DNA of 20,879 nucleotides, taken from positions 1 to 20,879 of IMG/VR virus record IMGVR_UViG_3300015371_000222. One strand, given 5' to 3'. The notes below the pieces were generated by a model. It was not told the DNA's origin. It ran no database searches and saw only the letters and a list, made by a program, of their open reading frames with translations. A program made the translations under genes and the position numbers. The stretch comes from a virus. Shown in pieces: positions 1 through 20,879 of the stretch (position 1 is its first letter; each line of letters starts with the position of its first letter).

Positions 1-47
1 CCCAGGCGAGTTTAAGCCCCCAGCTTATTGCTAATTCGGCCGGATTT

Positions 48-1475
48 ATGGCTACTTCTAGCGTAATAGGTAGCCAATATCCGAGAATTGCTCCGCATAG
101 TAGTGAACATTGGGATTATTCCTACGGGAACGCTGCCATCAATTGGAGCCGAGAGATATTGGGCATCGAGCTGATGCCCTGGCAGCAATTCCTCCTACGT
201 GAAGGATGCGCCAGACGTAACGGCAGGTTCCGGTACCGCACCCTATTGTCCGTCGTCGCTCGTCAGAACGGCAAGACACTCGTGGCAGCCATCCGCATCC
301 TTGCCGGCCTCTGCCTCTTCGGCGAGCGGTTAGCCGTCGGGGCAGCGCAGAACAGACCAATCGCTATGGAGTCATGGCAGATGGCCTACGAGATTGCCCA
401 GGATGCCGGGCTCCCTGTCGGCAAGCTCCGCTTGCAGTCCGGCACAGAGCGCTTCGACCTAGCAGGCGGTAGGTATCGCATCGTCGCCTCAACCGTCGGC
501 AGCGCTCGTGGCATCTCCGGCGTTGATTGCGTGCTGATGGACGAGATTCGTCAGCTCAGATCGTGGGAAGCCTACGCATCGATTGACAAGACGAGACGAG
601 CCCGGCCGGACTCTCAGCTTTGGGCGATCACGACCGAAGGTGACCTTCAGAGCGAAGTGCTCAACCGTTTGCAGACGACTGCCCGTGACGCAATCGAGCA
701 AGGGCAAGAGCTGCCGCTTGGGTATTGGGAATGGAGCGCTCCGCCTAACGCTCATCCTGCTGACCGAAGAGGTTGGGCGATGGCGAACCCATCTCTCGGC
801 TTCACGCTGGACGAGTCAACGGTTCTCGCAGAGTACGAAACCGATCCGGCGAGCGTCTTTGAGGTTGAGGTGCTCTGCCGAAAGGTCCTGGCCATCCAAT
901 CGTGGGTGAGCCCTGATGATTGGCAGCAATGTGCGAGTGATGCAGCGTTCCCGCTGGACTGCCCAATGGTCTTCGCCATCGATGCATCGGTTGACTTGCA
1001 GCATGTGAGCATCGTTGCCGGAGCGCTCAAAGACGATTGGCATTACCTAGAGCTGATCGCTTCCTATACCGGTCAACCGGCCTTGGCATCGGCAGAACGT
1101 CGCCTAGAATCGCTTCTAAGCCGTTGGAGCCCGGTCGGATGTGTCACGGTGGCCAAGAGCCCCTGCGAAGCGTCTGTGGCGAAATTAGCGGGCAGTGCGG
1201 GCATCTCACACATAGTGGTCAGACCAGCGGACTGGGCTCGTGCCTGCCGTGCGTTCTATGCGGCAGCTCGTCAGAAGACGATTCGGCATCCGGGGGGACC
1301 TGGCATTGCCGAGGCATTGGGAGCTACCCGGCGAGGCTCCGATGGGCTCGTGTCATCGGTCCACAAGATCAACCCACAAGCCGAAATCGATGCAGCACTT
1401 GCGGCCGTGCTCGCAATGTGGGCACCTACACAGATACCGGAGCCCGTCAAGGTTCCGAATTGGACGGTTTACTGA
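48..1475 (+). CDS. Terminase large subunit (TerL)
   Basis: The packaging motor ATPase and nuclease, which cuts concatemers and drives DNA into the prohead through the portal. The 475-residue length fits HK97-type TerL. A Walker A variant, ARQNGKT, lies at residues 71-77 and Walker B VLMDE at 162-166, with D165/E166 as the metal-binding and catalytic pair. Acidic nuclease residues are plausible at D312 (AIDAS) and D448 (AEIDAAL). The frame is open back to the window edge, so an earlier start cannot be excluded if the molecule is circular, but ATG 48 gives a normal N terminus. No good Shine-Dalgarno sequence precedes it. It is the first gene after the presumed cos end, the usual place for terminase. 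A small subunit was not recognised beside it. The stop overlaps the next start (tgATG). Confidence 0.93.
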   Translation: MATSSVIGSQYPRIAPHSSEHWDYSYGNAAINWSREILGIELMPWQQFLLREGCARRNGRFRYRTLLSVVARQNGKTLVAAIRILAGLCLFGERLAVGAAQNRPIAMESWQMAYEIAQDAGLPVGKLRLQSGTERFDLAGGRYRIVASTVGSARGISGVDCVLMDEIRQLRSWEAYASIDKTRRARPDSQLWAITTEGDLQSEVLNRLQTTARDAIEQGQELPLGYWEWSAPPNAHPADRRGWAMANPSLGFTLDESTVLAEYETDPASVFEVEVLCRKVLAIQSWVSPDDWQQCASDAAFPLDCPMVFAIDASVDLQHVSIVAGALKDDWHYLELIASYTGQPALASAERRLESLLSRWSPVGCVTVAKSPCEASVAKLAGSAGISHIVVRPADWARACRAFYAAARQKTIRHPGGPGIAEALGATRRGSDGLVSSVHKINPQAEIDAALAAVLAMWAPTQIPEPVKVPNWTVY

Positions 1476-4820: not shown

Positions 4821-5150
4821 ATGGCGCTGCCGACAGGGCCGAATTGGCCAGACATCGATACCTATAAGGCTTGGGCTCGCATCCCTGACGGCATCGATGA
4901 CGTTGCGGTTGATCAAGCCCTGTCGGCAGTTCAAGAGGCAATCGTTGCTCGATGCCCAAGCCTCGCCGATGCTCCCTGCCCTTGGGATGCGCAATACGCC
5001 TGCCTGCTGTGGACGAACCGAGTCCTCAATCGGCGCAATAGCCCAGACGGGATCGTCGGCGTTGCGGACCTTGGCGTTGCCACCATCGCTGCTTTCGACA
5101 AGGACATTGCGCAGATGATCAGTCCCTACGTAGAGCCGGTTATTGCGTAA
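4821..5150 (+). CDS. Head-tail connector (adaptor) protein
   Basis: A 109-residue protein directly after the capsid gene, the usual place of the gp6/gp15-like adaptor that docks under the portal ring. The sequence is mostly helical, with a DVAVDQALSAVQEAIVARCP helix and the segment AQYACLLWTNRVLNRRNSPDGIVG, which resembles the conserved helix-turn of actinophage head-tail connectors (RLY-RRNSP-G). It starts one base after the capsid stop, and its TAA overlaps the next ATG (TAATG). The assignment rests on position plus the RRNSPDG-like motif. A head-completion role is likely; the exact contact is inferred. Confidence 0.75.
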   Translation: MALPTGPNWPDIDTYKAWARIPDGIDDVAVDQALSAVQEAIVARCPSLADAPCPWDAQYACLLWTNRVLNRRNSPDGIVGVADLGVATIAAFDKDIAQMISPYVEPVIA

Positions 5151-5773
5151 TGGGACGGCCGTTGCTCTTGAACCTATTCTGCGGAGCCGGTGGCGCTGCT
5201 ATGGGATATCATCGGGCGGGCTTTAGGGTGATCGGCGTGGACGTTAGGCAACAGAAGCGCTACCCATTTGAGTTTCACCTGATGGACGCGTTTGATGCTT
5301 TGGCGACGAATCTTCGTCATGTGACAGTGATTCACGCATCTCCGCCCTGTCAGCACTATTCCGTTGGCGCCAAGTCTTGGAATACGGCCAAGAATCATCC
5401 TGACCTTGTGGCGACGATTCGCGATGCGTTGATCGCTACCGGCAAACCGTATGTCATTGAGAACATCCCTCAAGCTCCGTTAAAGGACCCCATTCGGCTC
5501 TGTGGCACGATGTTTGGGTTGCCACTAATCCGCCACCGGATGTTTGAAAGCGGGGATGGGCTCGTGGCACCGGAACATCGCCGCCACACCGGCCGAGTCC
5601 GGGCGCCATACGTAACGGTTACTGGTTACCCGGGCTATTCCAAGGGAGGAACGGTTGCAGATTGGCGACGAGCGATGGGCATTCCGTGGATGGCTAAAGA
5701 TGAGCTGTCTCAAGCGATTCCGCCAGCCTATACGGAATACGTGGGAAGGCAAGCGCTCGAATGGGTTCGCTAG
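5150..5773 (+). CDS. Compact C5-cytosine DNA methyltransferase
   Basis: Transfers a methyl group from S-adenosylmethionine to C5 of cytosine. Motifs appear in canonical order: motif I LFCGAGGAAMGY (residues 9-20, AdoMet binding), motif IV SPPCQ with catalytic C67, motif VI IEN (103-105), motif VIII RHR (128-130) and a C-terminal IPPAYTEYVG motif X. At 207 residues it is far smaller than Dcm-like enzymes (about 330-470). Only about 60 residues lie between motifs VIII and X, so the target-recognition domain is minimal. No restriction endonuclease is nearby, so it is an orphan enzyme, perhaps protecting phage DNA from host restriction. Its place inside the connector genes, coupled by TAATG upstream and a 13-nt overlap downstream, is unusual. 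Confidence 0.93.
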   Translation: MGRPLLLNLFCGAGGAAMGYHRAGFRVIGVDVRQQKRYPFEFHLMDAFDALATNLRHVTVIHASPPCQHYSVGAKSWNTAKNHPDLVATIRDALIATGKPYVIENIPQAPLKDPIRLCGTMFGLPLIRHRMFESGDGLVAPEHRRHTGRVRAPYVTVTGYPGYSKGGTVADWRRAMGIPWMAKDELSQAIPPAYTEYVGRQALEWVR

Positions 5774-12933: not shown

Positions 12934-13146
12934 ATGGATTGGGTCAAGCCGGATGACGCCAAGCGGTTGCTCTTGGACTACGAGGGACCATTGCCCACCG
13001 GAGCCATCGACAAGGCACTTGCGCTCGTGGGCAGGCACCCGCCGATGGCTCCGAGCCAATGGCGATCAGTCGCTCGGGTTCTCGGGCTCGTAGTACCGGA
13101 CCGGCACGATGCGGTCCTCAGACCACCCAGAGCCGTAGAGCACTAG
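12934..13146 (+). CDS. Possible small protein overlapping integrase end
   Basis: A 70-residue open frame. The first 44 codons lie in the space between the hairpin and the integrase stop, and the last 26 codons run antisense through the 3' end of the integrase (81 nt overlap). The protein portion starting MDWVKPDDAKRLLLDYEGPL and including VARVLGLV looks soluble and globular, unlike most shadow frames. ATG 12934 has GGAG and a GGGG tract upstream, at imperfect spacing. The function is not recognised. It could be an expressed accessory gene convergent with integrase, or a chance frame. Confidence 0.35.
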   Translation: MDWVKPDDAKRLLLDYEGPLPTGAIDKALALVGRHPPMAPSQWRSVARVLGLVVPDRHDAVLRPPRAVEH

Positions 13147-14616
13147 CACTCCCTCCGGGAACACTGCCTTGAGGACCGCTTGCAGCTCCGGCACGTCATC
13201 GGCCTTGACGGCTGCATCCCATCGGGCGAGCAGCTCGTCATTCGGCTGTGCTGTCGGAGCCGGATGCTCTCGGAGCCACTTGTTGCGCTCTCGGTTGAGC
13301 CGTGACGCTTCCACAACGAGCGGAGCGTCAACGTCCTGCCATGCAAGCCAGTCGATGCGTCCCGCATCCTTCTCAGCGAGCCAATGTGCCTTGCGGGTAA
13401 GTACCTCGTCCAGCGTCGGCTGATTCGGCCAAGGCTCCGGCACGTAGACATCAGGTCCGGGCTTGAGCAGCTCTGCCCGGACGAGCACGTCAAGGTAGGC
13501 ATTAGTCATCAACATGCTGATGTTGTTTCGCCCACAATGCCCGGGCTGTCCGCTAGAGCACCGGTAGCTATCTGACCCCTGCTCGCTCGCACTGCCCACC
13601 AAGCCCTTGCCGCACTCGCACAGAAGCGAGCCCGATCCGGGATACCGACGACGACTACCCGGCCGGAGACGACGGTTCTGGTAGATGGCCCGAATCTCTA
13701 GCCAACGAGGCAAGTCGATGATGGCGTCTTGGGTGCCCTTGATCGGCTCTCCCTCGTCGTCAAGAGCGCATCCGTAGAAGATTGGGTGCGTCTCTTGCTT
13801 ACGGTCAACCCGAAGCCCGGCAACTCGTGGGGAGGTGAGCACTCCCCGGATCGTGCCTAGCGTGATCGGTCCACCTCGTGGGCCGACGTAGCCGGCCTTG
13901 TTGAGCCGCTCAACCAATGGCCAGAGATGCTTCCCGGCTTCCACGAGGTTGGCGCACTCAAGGATGAGTGCTTTCTGCTTGGGGATCACGTCACCGGTAG
14001 ACGTGTAGCCCATACCGCTGGAGCCTGCTACGGCTCCTCGGCGTCGGCGCTGAGAATGCCAACGGGTAATGCGTCGCTTGGTTGCCTTGGACTCTCCGGC
14101 AGCTATGTGCACAAGCCGACGAGCCTCGTCCCGGCCGTCCGCTGTCCGCAAGTCGACTAGCGGGTTATCGCAGTACCAGTAGAATTGATTCCGCTTGCCG
14201 TCACGAAGCTCGTAGAGCCGAATCAGCATCTCCAAGTCGTACTGCTGACGAGTGAGCCTATCGATATCGTAGACGACGATTCCCTTGATGACTCCATTCT
14301 TCAGGTCGTCAACCATCCGATCGTAGGCGGGACGCTCAACGTTGAGCTTAGAGCCTGAATGGTTTGGATCTAAGTACACTCGTGCGACGTAGGCTCCGTC
14401 CGGCCGGATGTCAGCAGACATGTCCTGCCGGTCTTCGGCTAGCGCTTGGTCCGCTGCCTTCTGCTTCGCATCACTGAGCCTGACGTATTGACCCGTTGGG
14501 ACGCCGTCTTGGGGCTCGTACTCGATTAGTTTAGATTCATGCTTGCGAGCCCTACCGGTGGTGGCAGGTAGGATCGTCTCGTTGACCGGCTGCCGCCGAT
14601 CGTCTGGTCTGGACAC
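13066..14616 (-). CDS. Large serine integrase
   Basis: Catalyses site-specific integration of phage DNA at an attB site. The 516-residue protein has an N-terminal resolvase domain with YVRLSD (S48 the likely nucleophile) and YDIDRLTR (about 116-123). A recombinase domain follows (near RRGAVAGSSGMGY and the TIRGVLTSPRVAGLR region, about 195-270). A zinc ribbon comes next, CECGKGLVG with C333 and C335 plus YRCSSGQPGHCG, then a coiled-coil-rich C terminus. The length fits phage large serine recombinases. GTG 14616 has AAGGGG upstream, and the N terminus has about 40 residues before the usual resolvase start, which may make a later start real. An excisionase-like HTH gene lies on the other strand; serine integrases use unrelated directionality factors, so that link is open. 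Confidence 0.93.
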   Translation of the reverse strand: MSRPDDRRQPVNETILPATTGRARKHESKLIEYEPQDGVPTGQYVRLSDAKQKAADQALAEDRQDMSADIRPDGAYVARVYLDPNHSGSKLNVERPAYDRMVDDLKNGVIKGIVVYDIDRLTRQQYDLEMLIRLYELRDGKRNQFYWYCDNPLVDLRTADGRDEARRLVHIAAGESKATKRRITRWHSQRRRRGAVAGSSGMGYTSTGDVIPKQKALILECANLVEAGKHLWPLVERLNKAGYVGPRGGPITLGTIRGVLTSPRVAGLRVDRKQETHPIFYGCALDDEGEPIKGTQDAIIDLPRWLEIRAIYQNRRLRPGSRRRYPGSGSLLCECGKGLVGSASEQGSDSYRCSSGQPGHCGRNNISMLMTNAYLDVLVRAELLKPGPDVYVPEPWPNQPTLDEVLTRKAHWLAEKDAGRIDWLAWQDVDAPLVVEASRLNRERNKWLREHPAPTAQPNDELLARWDAAVKADDVPELQAVLKAVFPEGVLVLYGSGWSEDRIVPVRYYEPENPSD

Positions 14617-17802: not shown

Positions 17803-17993
17803 TCACCTGGACTTACCGGAATTGGGTCGATCTAGCCAAGGGCGATCTTGACCGTTGGATGCGCGACAAGATGGCCGACGGGGAGCGAGATACGTTTGAG
17901 CAGCGATGCGGTGAACATCTTGAGCTTGTGCTCACCGGGTTCTGGTTCGCTGCCAAGGGCGCCGGAGTGCTTTCTGACGAGGGGCCACAATGA
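17799..17993 (+). CDS. Small hypothetical protein
   Basis: A 64-residue protein, coupled at both ends: ATG 17799 overlaps the previous stop (ATGA), and its own stop overlaps the annealing-protein start. It is helical and charged (LAKGDLDRWMRDKMADGERD, then EHLELVLTGFWFAAKGAGV) without metal, nuclease or membrane motif. The position in the exonuclease-annealase operon suggests an accessory role in recombination, but that is only context. It may also be an adaptor or inhibitor. Confidence 0.6.
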   Translation: MITWTYRNWVDLAKGDLDRWMRDKMADGERDTFEQRCGEHLELVLTGFWFAAKGAGVLSDEGPQ

Positions 17994-18895
17994 GCCTCGT
18001 TCCTGCCTCATCAGTCCGGGAGTCAATGGACCTGATCAAGCGGACCATTGCCAAGGGAGCGACCGATCTAGAGCTTGAGCTATTCGTTCGGCAGTGCGAG
18101 CGGACTGGGCTTGATCCGTTTGCCCGTCAGATATATGCGATCAAGCGATGGGATGCGAGCGTCGGCGCTGAGGTGATGCAGACACAAGTATCAATCGATG
18201 GGCTTCGCACCCTTGCCGCTGATACCAACGAGATGGGCGGTCAAGATGGACCGTTCTGGTGCGGCCTAGACGGCTACTGGCTGGACGTCTGGCTTGAGCC
18301 GGAGCCGCCGAAAGCTGCCCGGGTAATCGTCATCAGGTCTGCGAACGGGACCCAAGCTCGATTCACGGGAACGGCTCTGTGGTCCTCATATGCGCAGACG
18401 AAACGTGATGGCTCGCTGAATCGGATGTGGGCTCAGATGGGAGCAGAGATGCTCGCAAAGTGTGCGGAAGCATTGGCTCTGCGCAAGGCCTTCCCTCAGC
18501 GACTTAGTGGTCTGTATACGAGTGACGAAATGGGTCAAGCAGACGGACATGCCCCCGTCCGGGTTGAACCGCCGGAGAGGCCGCTAGAACCCCCGGAGAA
18601 GCCCGCCGACCCCCTTCCGGCAGTGCTCGCCCATCCGACCGATCCGGAGCCGTCAGAGGCGAATCTAGGCGGCAATCCGGGGACGCTCGGAGCCGAATCG
18701 AGTGAGCGGGTCCAGAATCGGATGCGGCAGCGGGTCAGCGAGGAAATGGGCCGATTGACAGCAGCTCAACGGTCATCGGCTCTCGCATTAGGGGACGCTA
18801 AGCATCTCCGCTTACCAGACGAGCAATCGTTTACGTCTGAGGATGCCAACGGGTGGCTCATCATCTTTGCAAAGGTCAGATCTGATGCCAGCTAA
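17990..18895 (+). CDS. bet: Bet/RecT-type single-strand annealing protein
   Basis: A 301-residue protein that anneals complementary single strands. Conserved family segments are visible: LFVRQCERTGLDPFARQIY (about 30-50), QVSIDGLRTLA near 66-76, and WAQMGAEMLAKCAEALALRK (about 146-166). The rest of the core follows (AFPQRLSGLYTSDEM). A proline-rich linker (about 186-215) leads to an alpha-helical C terminus, which may bind host SSB or a partner as in lambda Beta. It overlaps the previous gene by 4 nt. With the upstream PD-(D/E)XK nuclease and downstream resolvase it forms a complete recombination set. No polymerase or helicase is near. Confidence 0.9.
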   Translation: MSLVPASSVRESMDLIKRTIAKGATDLELELFVRQCERTGLDPFARQIYAIKRWDASVGAEVMQTQVSIDGLRTLAADTNEMGGQDGPFWCGLDGYWLDVWLEPEPPKAARVIVIRSANGTQARFTGTALWSSYAQTKRDGSLNRMWAQMGAEMLAKCAEALALRKAFPQRLSGLYTSDEMGQADGHAPVRVEPPERPLEPPEKPADPLPAVLAHPTDPEPSEANLGGNPGTLGAESSERVQNRMRQRVSEEMGRLTAAQRSSALALGDAKHLRLPDEQSFTSEDANGWLIIFAKVRSDAS

Positions 18896-19607: not shown

Positions 19608-19773
19608 ATATCCACAGGCTCCTCGTGCGGGCGCGCGCGATTATTGAATAAATACTCTTAAACCTTTGTTTACAACCCCTAATGATATATAACTAAAAAC
19701 ACAAACAGTTGAGTTGTTCAAACAGTCTGTTTACCCAAGTAAACGGGGTGTTATCTTTAAGGGTTTGCGCGCG
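19608..19773. other. AT-rich origin-like region
   Basis: A sharp composition change. GCGCGCGCG (19631-19639) and GCGCGCG (19767-19773) bracket about 127 bp that are strongly A/T rich, in a window otherwise GC rich. ATATCCACA at 19608-19616 differs from the DnaA box TTATCCACA at one base. Within lie GTTTAC (19668, 19729), inverted GTAAAC (19739), direct repeats CAAACAGT (19702, 19719) and palindromes such as AAACAGTCTGTTT (19720-19732). A replication origin, or a cluster of promoters and operators for the next genes, fits. TTGTTT (19666) and TATAAC (19688) with a 16-bp spacer could be a promoter. Confidence 0.5.
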
Positions 19774-19777
19774 AGGA

Positions 19778-20122
19778 ATGGACAACGTAAAGCCCATCAG
19801 GGCTATCAGACGGATGCTAATTGAGCGGGTTAGCTACGAGCAGGCATTGAGTGAGCAAATGGGAAACCATCAGGGCAGTGACGATCCGTTCTACAGCAGC
19901 GGTACTTGGTTCCGGCTACGTCTCGGCATCCTTCAGCGAGACGAGTACAAGTGTCAGATCAGGGGCACTGTCTGTGCAGGACGAGCCGACAGGGTAGATC
20001 ACATCGTCCCAAGGTCTAAGGGTGGCAGTGATCATCCGACGAATCTTCAGGCTTCGTGCAAGCCGTGCAATACACAGAAGAAGGATCGGGTACTCAGCCC
20101 GGTTCAAACGGTCAAGTGGTAA
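19778..20122 (+). CDS. HNH endonuclease
   Basis: A 114-residue nuclease. C59 and C66 lie before the core DHIVPRSKGGSDHPTNL (D74, H75, N89), then CKPCN with C94 and C97. This is the zinc-structured HNH fold (compare C...C, DH, GG, N, C-x-x-C). HNH proteins encoded beside terminases often work with TerL in cos cleavage, and this one lies about 760 bp before the presumed cos end, in line with that. The start is uncertain: ATG 19778 is preceded by a GAGGA placed too close. GTG 19748, TTG 19709 and ATG 19814 are alternatives. It might also be a homing endonuclease. Confidence 0.85.
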   Translation: MDNVKPIRAIRRMLIERVSYEQALSEQMGNHQGSDDPFYSSGTWFRLRLGILQRDEYKCQIRGTVCAGRADRVDHIVPRSKGGSDHPTNLQASCKPCNTQKKDRVLSPVQTVKW

Positions 20123-20133
20123 AGGACAGGACA

Positions 20134-20448
20134 ATGACGATCCTTTGGGAAGACCCACCTAAAGCTCCGAACGGCCGTCATAGCGGTCCAAGGGAGCGCA
20201 GTCCTCTTCGGCAGGAAGTCGATCAGATGGCAGAGCAGCTTGCCGCCTACCCCGGCCGCTGGGCGCGTCTTTGGATCTTCGAAGACAGGGACGAAGCGGA
20301 CAAGCGAGCAGCCTTCGTCCGATCGGCTTTCGGTCGTGGGTGGAACGTTGCGGTCCGGGAAACCGAAGACGGATGGGTGCTCTTCGCCCGGCTCAAGCCA
20401 GAGCTGGACGAGGACGCCGAGACGGAGCGAGAGCCGACCTTTCAGTGA
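20134..20448 (+). CDS. Hypothetical protein preceding the packaging end
   Basis: A 104-residue protein. Its first 35 residues are basic and proline rich (ILWEDPPKAPNGRHSGPRER), followed by a compact part (VDQMAEQLAAYPGRWARLWI, then RDEADKRAAFVRSAFGRGWN and VAVRETEDGWVLFARL). This helix-strand layout, with PGxWA and a terminal W-V-x-x-A-R strand, resembles a class of small actinophage proteins of unknown role found near replication genes. ATG 20134 has AAAGGA upstream. Because no small terminase was recognised, it could be one, but no HTH is visible, so this is speculative. Confidence 0.65.
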   Translation: MTILWEDPPKAPNGRHSGPRERSPLRQEVDQMAEQLAAYPGRWARLWIFEDRDEADKRAAFVRSAFGRGWNVAVRETEDGWVLFARLKPELDEDAETEREPTFQ

Positions 20449-20469: not shown

Positions 20470-20832
20470 GTTAGCGGGTCGTCACTGAGTGTGTGGCAGG
20501 TGCTGATGGTTCCCGGGCAGGGGATTGGGCCTCGGAGGCTGTCCAGTCGTCTGCTTAAAGCCCGGTGGCTAGGTCCTAATGGGTTCGTGCGTGCTCTGCG
20601 GGACCTAGCCACCATCACGAGTTAGCACAAGAATATGGATTGGCAAAGACCTTCACCACATGCTCGTCCCACCCCTCAGCTAGATAGAGCTGAAACGGCC
20701 CACCGGAAGCCGTCCGTGGACCAATGGCTAACCGACAAGGACCCCCAATGGTCGTGGGCCGGGGCAGGCAGGTCAGGTGGGGTAATTACGCTAACAAATG
20801 AAGCTAACGACCAATCCGGAATTCATGCTAAC
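20470..20832. repeat. Cluster of six GCTAAC/GTTAGC hexamers
   Basis: GCTAAC occurs at 20727, 20790, 20803 and 20827, and its reverse complement at 20470 and 20621, six copies in about 360 bp. Two plus-strand pairs are spaced 13 and 24 bp apart. A few scattered copies exist elsewhere (for instance 11324, 15144, 16602). The dense group, approaching the presumed cos end, suggests binding sites for terminase or a regulator. Confidence 0.5.
20564..20613. repeat. 13-bp perfect inverted repeat, repeat copies 3 and 4
   Basis: GGTGGCTAGGTCC (20564-20576) and GGACCTAGCCACC (20601-20613) are perfect arms with a 24-nt loop. Each arm contains the GGCTAGGTCC 10-mer. The structure could be a terminator for the rightward operon or a double binding site. 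No U-tract follows. Confidence 0.5.
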
Positions 20833-20879
20833 ATCGAGGAACATAGCGATTTTTATATTTCGAAATCGGGCCGCATAGG
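20635..20879 (+). CDS. Open frame running off the right end, doubtful
   Basis: ATG 20635 opens 81 codons (MDWQRPSPHARPTPQLDRAE...) that reach the window edge without a stop. If the ends are joined, the frame continues over positions 1-31 and stops at TAA 32-34, giving 92 residues and ending 13 nt before TerL. That would be the small-terminase position, but no HTH or known motif is seen, no Shine-Dalgarno precedes the start, and the frame crosses the repeated GCTAAC hexamers and AT-rich end. It may be chance. Confidence 0.3.
   Translation, partial: MDWQRPSPHARPTPQLDRAETAHRKPSVDQWLTDKDPQWSWAGAGRSGGVITLTNEANDQSGIHANIEEHSDFYISKSGRI
20847..20868. repeat. AT-rich palindrome beside the cos-like end
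   Basis: ATTTCGAAAT (20857-20866) is a perfect 10-bp palindrome, and CGATTT (20847-20852) with AAATCG (20863-20868) forms a wider dyad. The AT-rich block lies directly beside the GC-rich end. It could bend or melt DNA next to the cut site. Confidence 0.4.
20868..20879. other. Right cohesive-end (cos) candidate
   Basis: The last bases GGGCCGCATAGG, joined to the first bases CCC, form GGGCC-gcata-GGCCC. Symmetric nicks placed at the top-strand end (after 20879) and mirrored on the other strand (between 20870 and 20871) leave a 9-nt 3' overhang CCGCATAGG (20871-20879). Actinophages often have 3' overhangs of about 9-14 nt. This supports a complete linear cos genome. It is inferred from symmetry only. 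Confidence 0.5.

Follow-up and report, generated by a model that had tools for sequence, protein, structure and literature searches.

Cleavage at the cos site of phage HK97 gives 3′ overhangs and is carried out by TerL, TerS and the HNH protein gp74 (PMC11331095, PMC9410871). The HK97 TerS site lies at +15 to +29 from the cut and needs an A/T tract, with A:T at positions 24-29 (PMC11331095, PMC9410871). In Arthrobacter phage Maja and similar actinophages, an HNH gene is the last gene of the right end and the terminase genes are at the left end. P22 and SPP1 are headful phages with variable ends, and their pac site is inside the small-terminase gene (terS). A limited search of the literature yielded no report of a cos site cleaved within the terL reading frame, or of genes spanning cos.

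We analysed a 20,879-nt stretch of DNA (the window), an IMG/VR record that is classed as linear and is not a sequenced virion. Its megablast comparison with cultured phages gave no match, and it would belong to a tailed phage of the HK97 type that is uncultured and probably infects Actinobacteria. We consider it highly probable that the window covers practically the entire linear virion genome, and that its ends are terminase cuts at a 3′-type cos inside terL. The features used below are the following.

1..3, + strand: left terminus CCC; starts in the same codon in G037, G039, L080, L213 and G004
3..1475, + strand: TerL core (ATPase/nuclease part); PHROG_9 terminase large subunit, E 4.9e-69
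19709..20122, + strand: HNH endonuclease; PHROG_589, E 1.7e-20, and Pfam HNH_5/HNH
20134..20448, + strand: conserved protein of about 105 aa between HNH and terL; no family match
20564..20613, no strand assigned: inverted repeat with 13-bp arms, GGTGGCTAGGTCC and GGACCTAGCCACC; read from the sequence
20635..20877, + strand: TerL N-terminal segment, cut by the right edge; tblastn to the TerL N-termini of relatives
20727..20832, - strand: four GTTAGC/GCTAAC hexamers, at 20727, 20790, 20803 and 20827; 6-mer counts
20850..20854, + strand: T-tract TTTTT, the sole T5 run in the window
20873..20879, + strand: GCATAGG, probable first part of a 3′ overhang, provided that this has the 12 nt of the sister group described below

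Like HK97, the window has a TerL of the HK97-type family, which scores below the Pfam cut-off for TerL_ATPase, and an HNH gene near a terminus. Judging from contigs, it would also share with HK97 site-specific ends with 3′ overhangs and an A/T tract within 30 bp of the cut. Unlike in HK97, the cleavage site would be within terL coding sequence, with the T-tract towards the right end; the small terminase is a positional candidate, and the overhang, of 5 to 12 nt, may differ in length. The placement of the HNH and terminase genes, near the right and left ends, resembles that in Maja and other actinophages. However, the HNH gene of Maja ends before the end of the record, and terL in Maja does not run across the ends. 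As with pac in P22 and SPP1, the packaging signal would be embedded in a terminase gene, but the ends are fixed in the window's group and terL is divided by the cut itself, whereas the site of those phages is in terS.

The preliminary description had placed the HNH gene close to the right end. Its position at 19709-20122 agrees with this, although the ORF of about 105 aa and the start of terL lie between the HNH gene and the end. The HNH protein is a candidate cofactor of cos cleavage. The protein of about 105 aa carries the motif MT(V/I)xWEDPP... WARLWxFE...ADKRA in the window's group and has no Pfam or family match; its position makes it a possible small terminase. The inverted repeat sits between its gene and the terL start, and hairpins of different sequence are found at a similar position in five relatives (L045, L047, L049, L051 and L181). 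Among 6-mers of the terL 5′ region, GTTAGC/GCTAAC shows the strongest over-representation in the window and ranks first or second in G001 and G007 (P about 1e-6 per genome, before correction for about 2,000 words). We considered these hexamers as cosB iterons and dropped them, since they are enriched in these three genomes and absent from other relatives. Elsewhere in the window, there is a serine integrase (13066-14616, - strand), which suggests a temperate phage, as well as a RecT homologue (17990-18895) and a DNA methyltransferase (phrog_363, 5150-5773) inserted among the head-tail genes.

The terL reading frame at the two ends

TerL is one ORF of 535-590 aa in nine of the nine relatives that span the place where the window ends (G001, G002, G003, G005, G006, G007, G035, G036 and L078). 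In two contigs found later, L221 and L224, the terL frame is likewise open through this region. Close relatives are 59-68% identical to the window in TerL. The N-terminal segment of the protein carries a conserved W..D..WSW.G.GRSGG motif, and in the window this segment is encoded at the right end, where positions 20635..20877 match the TerL N-termini of G007, G001 and G003 (tblastn, 4e-13, 1e-9 and 7e-4, respectively). Among 50,697 cultured phage records, none matched this segment significantly.

Both ends of the window fall in the linker that separates the TerL N-terminal segment from the core. This linker varies strongly in length and sequence, and contains a 36-nt tandem repeat in G007. The differences at the three codon positions in three pairs of sequences (50/52/93) favour third positions, which indicates coding sequence; the counts come from a protein-guided alignment and are thus somewhat biased.

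It is misleading to place the TerL start 48 nt from the left end, as was done earlier. Upstream of the ATG at 48, the frame continues open as far as base 3, the N-terminal part of the gene is at the right end, and the ATG itself is internal when aligned with full-length relatives. A further contig, L044, is 100% identical to the window over its TerL part and also begins inside terL. When the end of the window is joined directly to its start, a stop follows after 92 aa of terL, and the frame stays open only with a gap of 2, 5, 8, 11... nt at the joint. Alignment of the window residues SDFYISKSGRI..(A)Q with GGFFSELSVRPAKAQ of G001 suggests that about 5 nt are missing there. Both the missing bases and a continuous terL ORF in the window's own phage are thus deduced from relatives.

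The same cos site could instead separate two proteins, the N-terminal segment and a TerL core starting at the in-frame ATG at 48, so that nothing would be split. This arrangement would suit the broken frame at the direct joint. It is unlikely, since the frame is open upstream of 48 as far as the left edge, all nine spanning relatives as well as L221 and L224 have one ORF through the site, and the frame of the window closes with just the 5-nt gap that homology predicts. We therefore favour a single terL gene that would be translated across the joint.

Contig ends in the group and in sister phages

Among the 60 ends of 30 contigs of the group, 16 fall within one 18-nt interval of the TerL linker, where 0.05 would be expected (P far below 1e-20 under uniform ends). 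The ends of independent relatives coincide and are clustered, not variable and circularly permuted as in headful packaging from a pac site. In assemblies, virion ends come to lie at the limits of contigs, and 3′ overhangs are stripped by end repair (PMC5557969; likewise PMC5000459).

We counted end positions in nucleotides after the codon pair that holds the T-tract (FF, FL or FY); the tract codes for the F of D-F-Y in the window and is part of G-F-F or G-F-L in relatives. Right ends are at nt 22 in G034, G037 and G038, 23 in the window and G039, and 25 in G012. Left starts are at nt 28 in G037, G039, L080, L213 and G004, 29 in the window and 30 in G012. For L080, L213 and G004, which lack the upstream part, the start positions come from codon alignment; for the window, G037, G039 and G012, we took the smallest gap that fits frame and homology. 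Left ends typically open with CC(C/G): CCCAGG in the window, CCCAGC in G037, CCGGCA in G039, CCGCTC in both L080 and L213, and CCCAAT in G004, with GCCGGC in G012. In five near-complete contigs of 20.9-22.3 kb (the window, G012, G034, G037 and G039), both ends are bounded at this place. In G004, TCCGATCT stands directly before CCCAAT and is identical to the 3′ end of a common Illumina adapter, which suggests a physical DNA end. We infer that the top strand is nicked immediately before base 1 of the window, give or take 1 nt.

Some relatives (such as G001, G002, G003 and G007) run across the site; non-virion or circular DNA was therefore sampled as well. G002 (22381 bp) and G007 (23617 bp) are near-complete genomes whose breaks lie at other places, and their ends are separated by about 15 and 90 missing nt, respectively. 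Both were likely assembled from circular or concatemeric DNA.

The T-tract lies at a fixed distance from the site of the contig ends in G001, G005, G006, G012, G034-G039, L221 and L224. A/T runs of at least 6 nt occur once each in G001, G036 and G037 (18-20 kb examined); by position, this single run is the T-tract in G001 and G037, and the same element on the other strand in G036. By analogy, the T-tract is probably part of the terminase recognition site, and it is plausibly the counterpart of the A/T tract in the HK97 TerS site.

A search by TerL alignment yielded about 70 contigs from phages that are more distantly related; their near-complete genomes measure 14-15 kb (for example G016, G018, G019 and G021). 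None of the 42 viral contigs found by an exact search for GGGCCGCATAGGCCC appeared in the TerL searches, and a prophage search in genome contigs returned three weak TerL matches only. The TerL of this sister group is about 33% identical to that of Maja-type actinophages. Many sister contigs from unrelated metagenomes start at the identical base just before terL, and complete ones run from this start to the HNH end, with ..GGACAC or ..GAACAC as last bases. Sister relatives that span the site have 12 nt between these ends, in two patterns: GGACAC / CTCTGACTCTTC / CTTTTCCG and GAACAC / CACCGACCCCGC / ATGTTCTT. The 12-nt gap matches a trimmed 3′ overhang. Two contigs, L114 and L144, have purine-rich starts that stop exactly 12 nt before the nick (AGAAGGAGGA / CCCCGACCCTTC / ATGG in L114), which we interpret as tails that library preparation attached to a 3′ overhang.

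As in the window's group, the top nick of the sister phages is 28 nt after the FF codons, the order is HNH-cos-terL, and the cut is inside a reading frame. Unlike in the window, it falls in the 3′ part of the HNH ORF instead of terL, and the overhang would be 12 nt. In the 28 of 31 spanning contigs whose frame was covered as far as the stop (all but L085, L086 and L090), the HNH ORF crosses the site and overlaps the terL start. At such loci (e.g. L127:9565-9864), cos is in the 3′ coding part of HNH, whose end overlaps the terL start codon.

These data bear on whether the ends of the window could be an ordinary assembly break, with packaging maybe headful and ends that are not physical. The linker is hypervariable and bears the tandem repeat in G007, and both G002 and G007 are broken elsewhere. 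Nevertheless, such a break is quite improbable, as divergent species have ends that agree to within 1-3 nt and keep a fixed distance from the T-tract, the adapter-like end of G004 and the purine-rich tails point to physical DNA ends, and the sister group, with its cos in a different gene, has its ends at the same spacing. Overall, the comparison of contig ends, which was not part of the material behind the preliminary description, makes it very probable that its central proposal was right, namely that the window ends at a cos site of 3′ polarity, close to terL and HNH.

Overhang length and the palindrome at the joint

The gap between the ends is 5 nt in the window and G037, and 4 nt in G039 and G012. 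The ends leave a gap without overlap, as expected after trimming of 3′ ends; the exception is G034, with an 8-nt overlap. G034 and L207, assemblies of a single phage from two metagenomes, have their starts 13 and 12 nt upstream of the nick, respectively. The gap of 4-5 nt fits a 5-nt overhang, while the starts of L207 and G034 together with the sister group favour 12 nt. The overhang is either about 5 nt, and would then be wholly missing from the contig, or about 12 nt and partly kept at right ends. In the latter case, by analogy with the sister group, GCATAGG would be its first part and about 5 nt after it would probably be missing.

An overhang of 9 nt, CCGCATAGG, had been proposed from a palindrome across the directly joined ends, and is indicated by neither reading. 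The last 12 bases of the window are GGGCCGCATAGG and the first are CCC, and the string GGGCC-gcata-GGCCC does form on joining. However, this symmetry is at chance level: of 20,000 random end and start joins within the window, 14.5% gave a palindrome over the joint with arms of at least 5 nt and a spacer of at most 10 nt, and 6.8% did so with a spacer of at most 5 nt. The symmetry is therefore no evidence for cos, and we found no dyad symmetry beyond chance around the nicks. As direct joining breaks terL, the palindrome is probably not present in the actual phage. We also tried palindromes at the nicks of relatives as a ruler for the overhang, and dropped them because no consistent dyad was seen by eye. 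A 9-nt cos set by GGGCC-N5-GGCCC, with ends that join directly, is thus hardly credible. In its favour, the letters are as given, and phages of this kind could well have an overhang of that polarity and size class. Against it, terL is one ORF in every spanning relative but would be interrupted by a stop at the direct joint, no consistent palindrome marks the nicks of relatives, and the sister phages have 12 nt.

Consequences for packaging and annotation

In the mechanism that we propose, the terminase would cut a fixed cos site in the linker between the N-terminal segment and the ATPase/nuclease core of TerL, with the T-tract, 28 nt before the top-strand nick, as a fixed landmark and probable part of the recognition site. 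The linear virion DNA would thus carry terL in two pieces, one per end. The 3′ cohesive ends would have lost part or all of the overhang in the contig, which would account for the 5 nt or so missing at the joint. Joining of the cohesive ends, or concatemer formation, would make terL a single ORF again. With the cut inside the gene, terL would be whole only after the DNA circularises.

Contigs that end at the cut lead to annotation of such genomes with truncated terL genes. In turn, the contig ends of many assemblies can reveal the exact virion ends of uncultured phages without reads or isolates, and likely overhangs and recognition landmarks can be read from them as well. The ‘linear’ class of IMG/VR, described as often containing fragments, can include complete genomes of such phages.

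The cut within terL may have a regulatory purpose, or a flexible linker may merely tolerate the cut site. That it acts as a functional switch, in which each packaging cut destroys the gene for the cutter, is a tentative idea that we hold to be somewhat doubtful. If true, full TerL (or HNH in the sister lineage) would be made only from circularised or concatemeric DNA, synthesis of the motor would be tied to circularisation of the genome, and the linker sequence would double as protein and cleavage signal.
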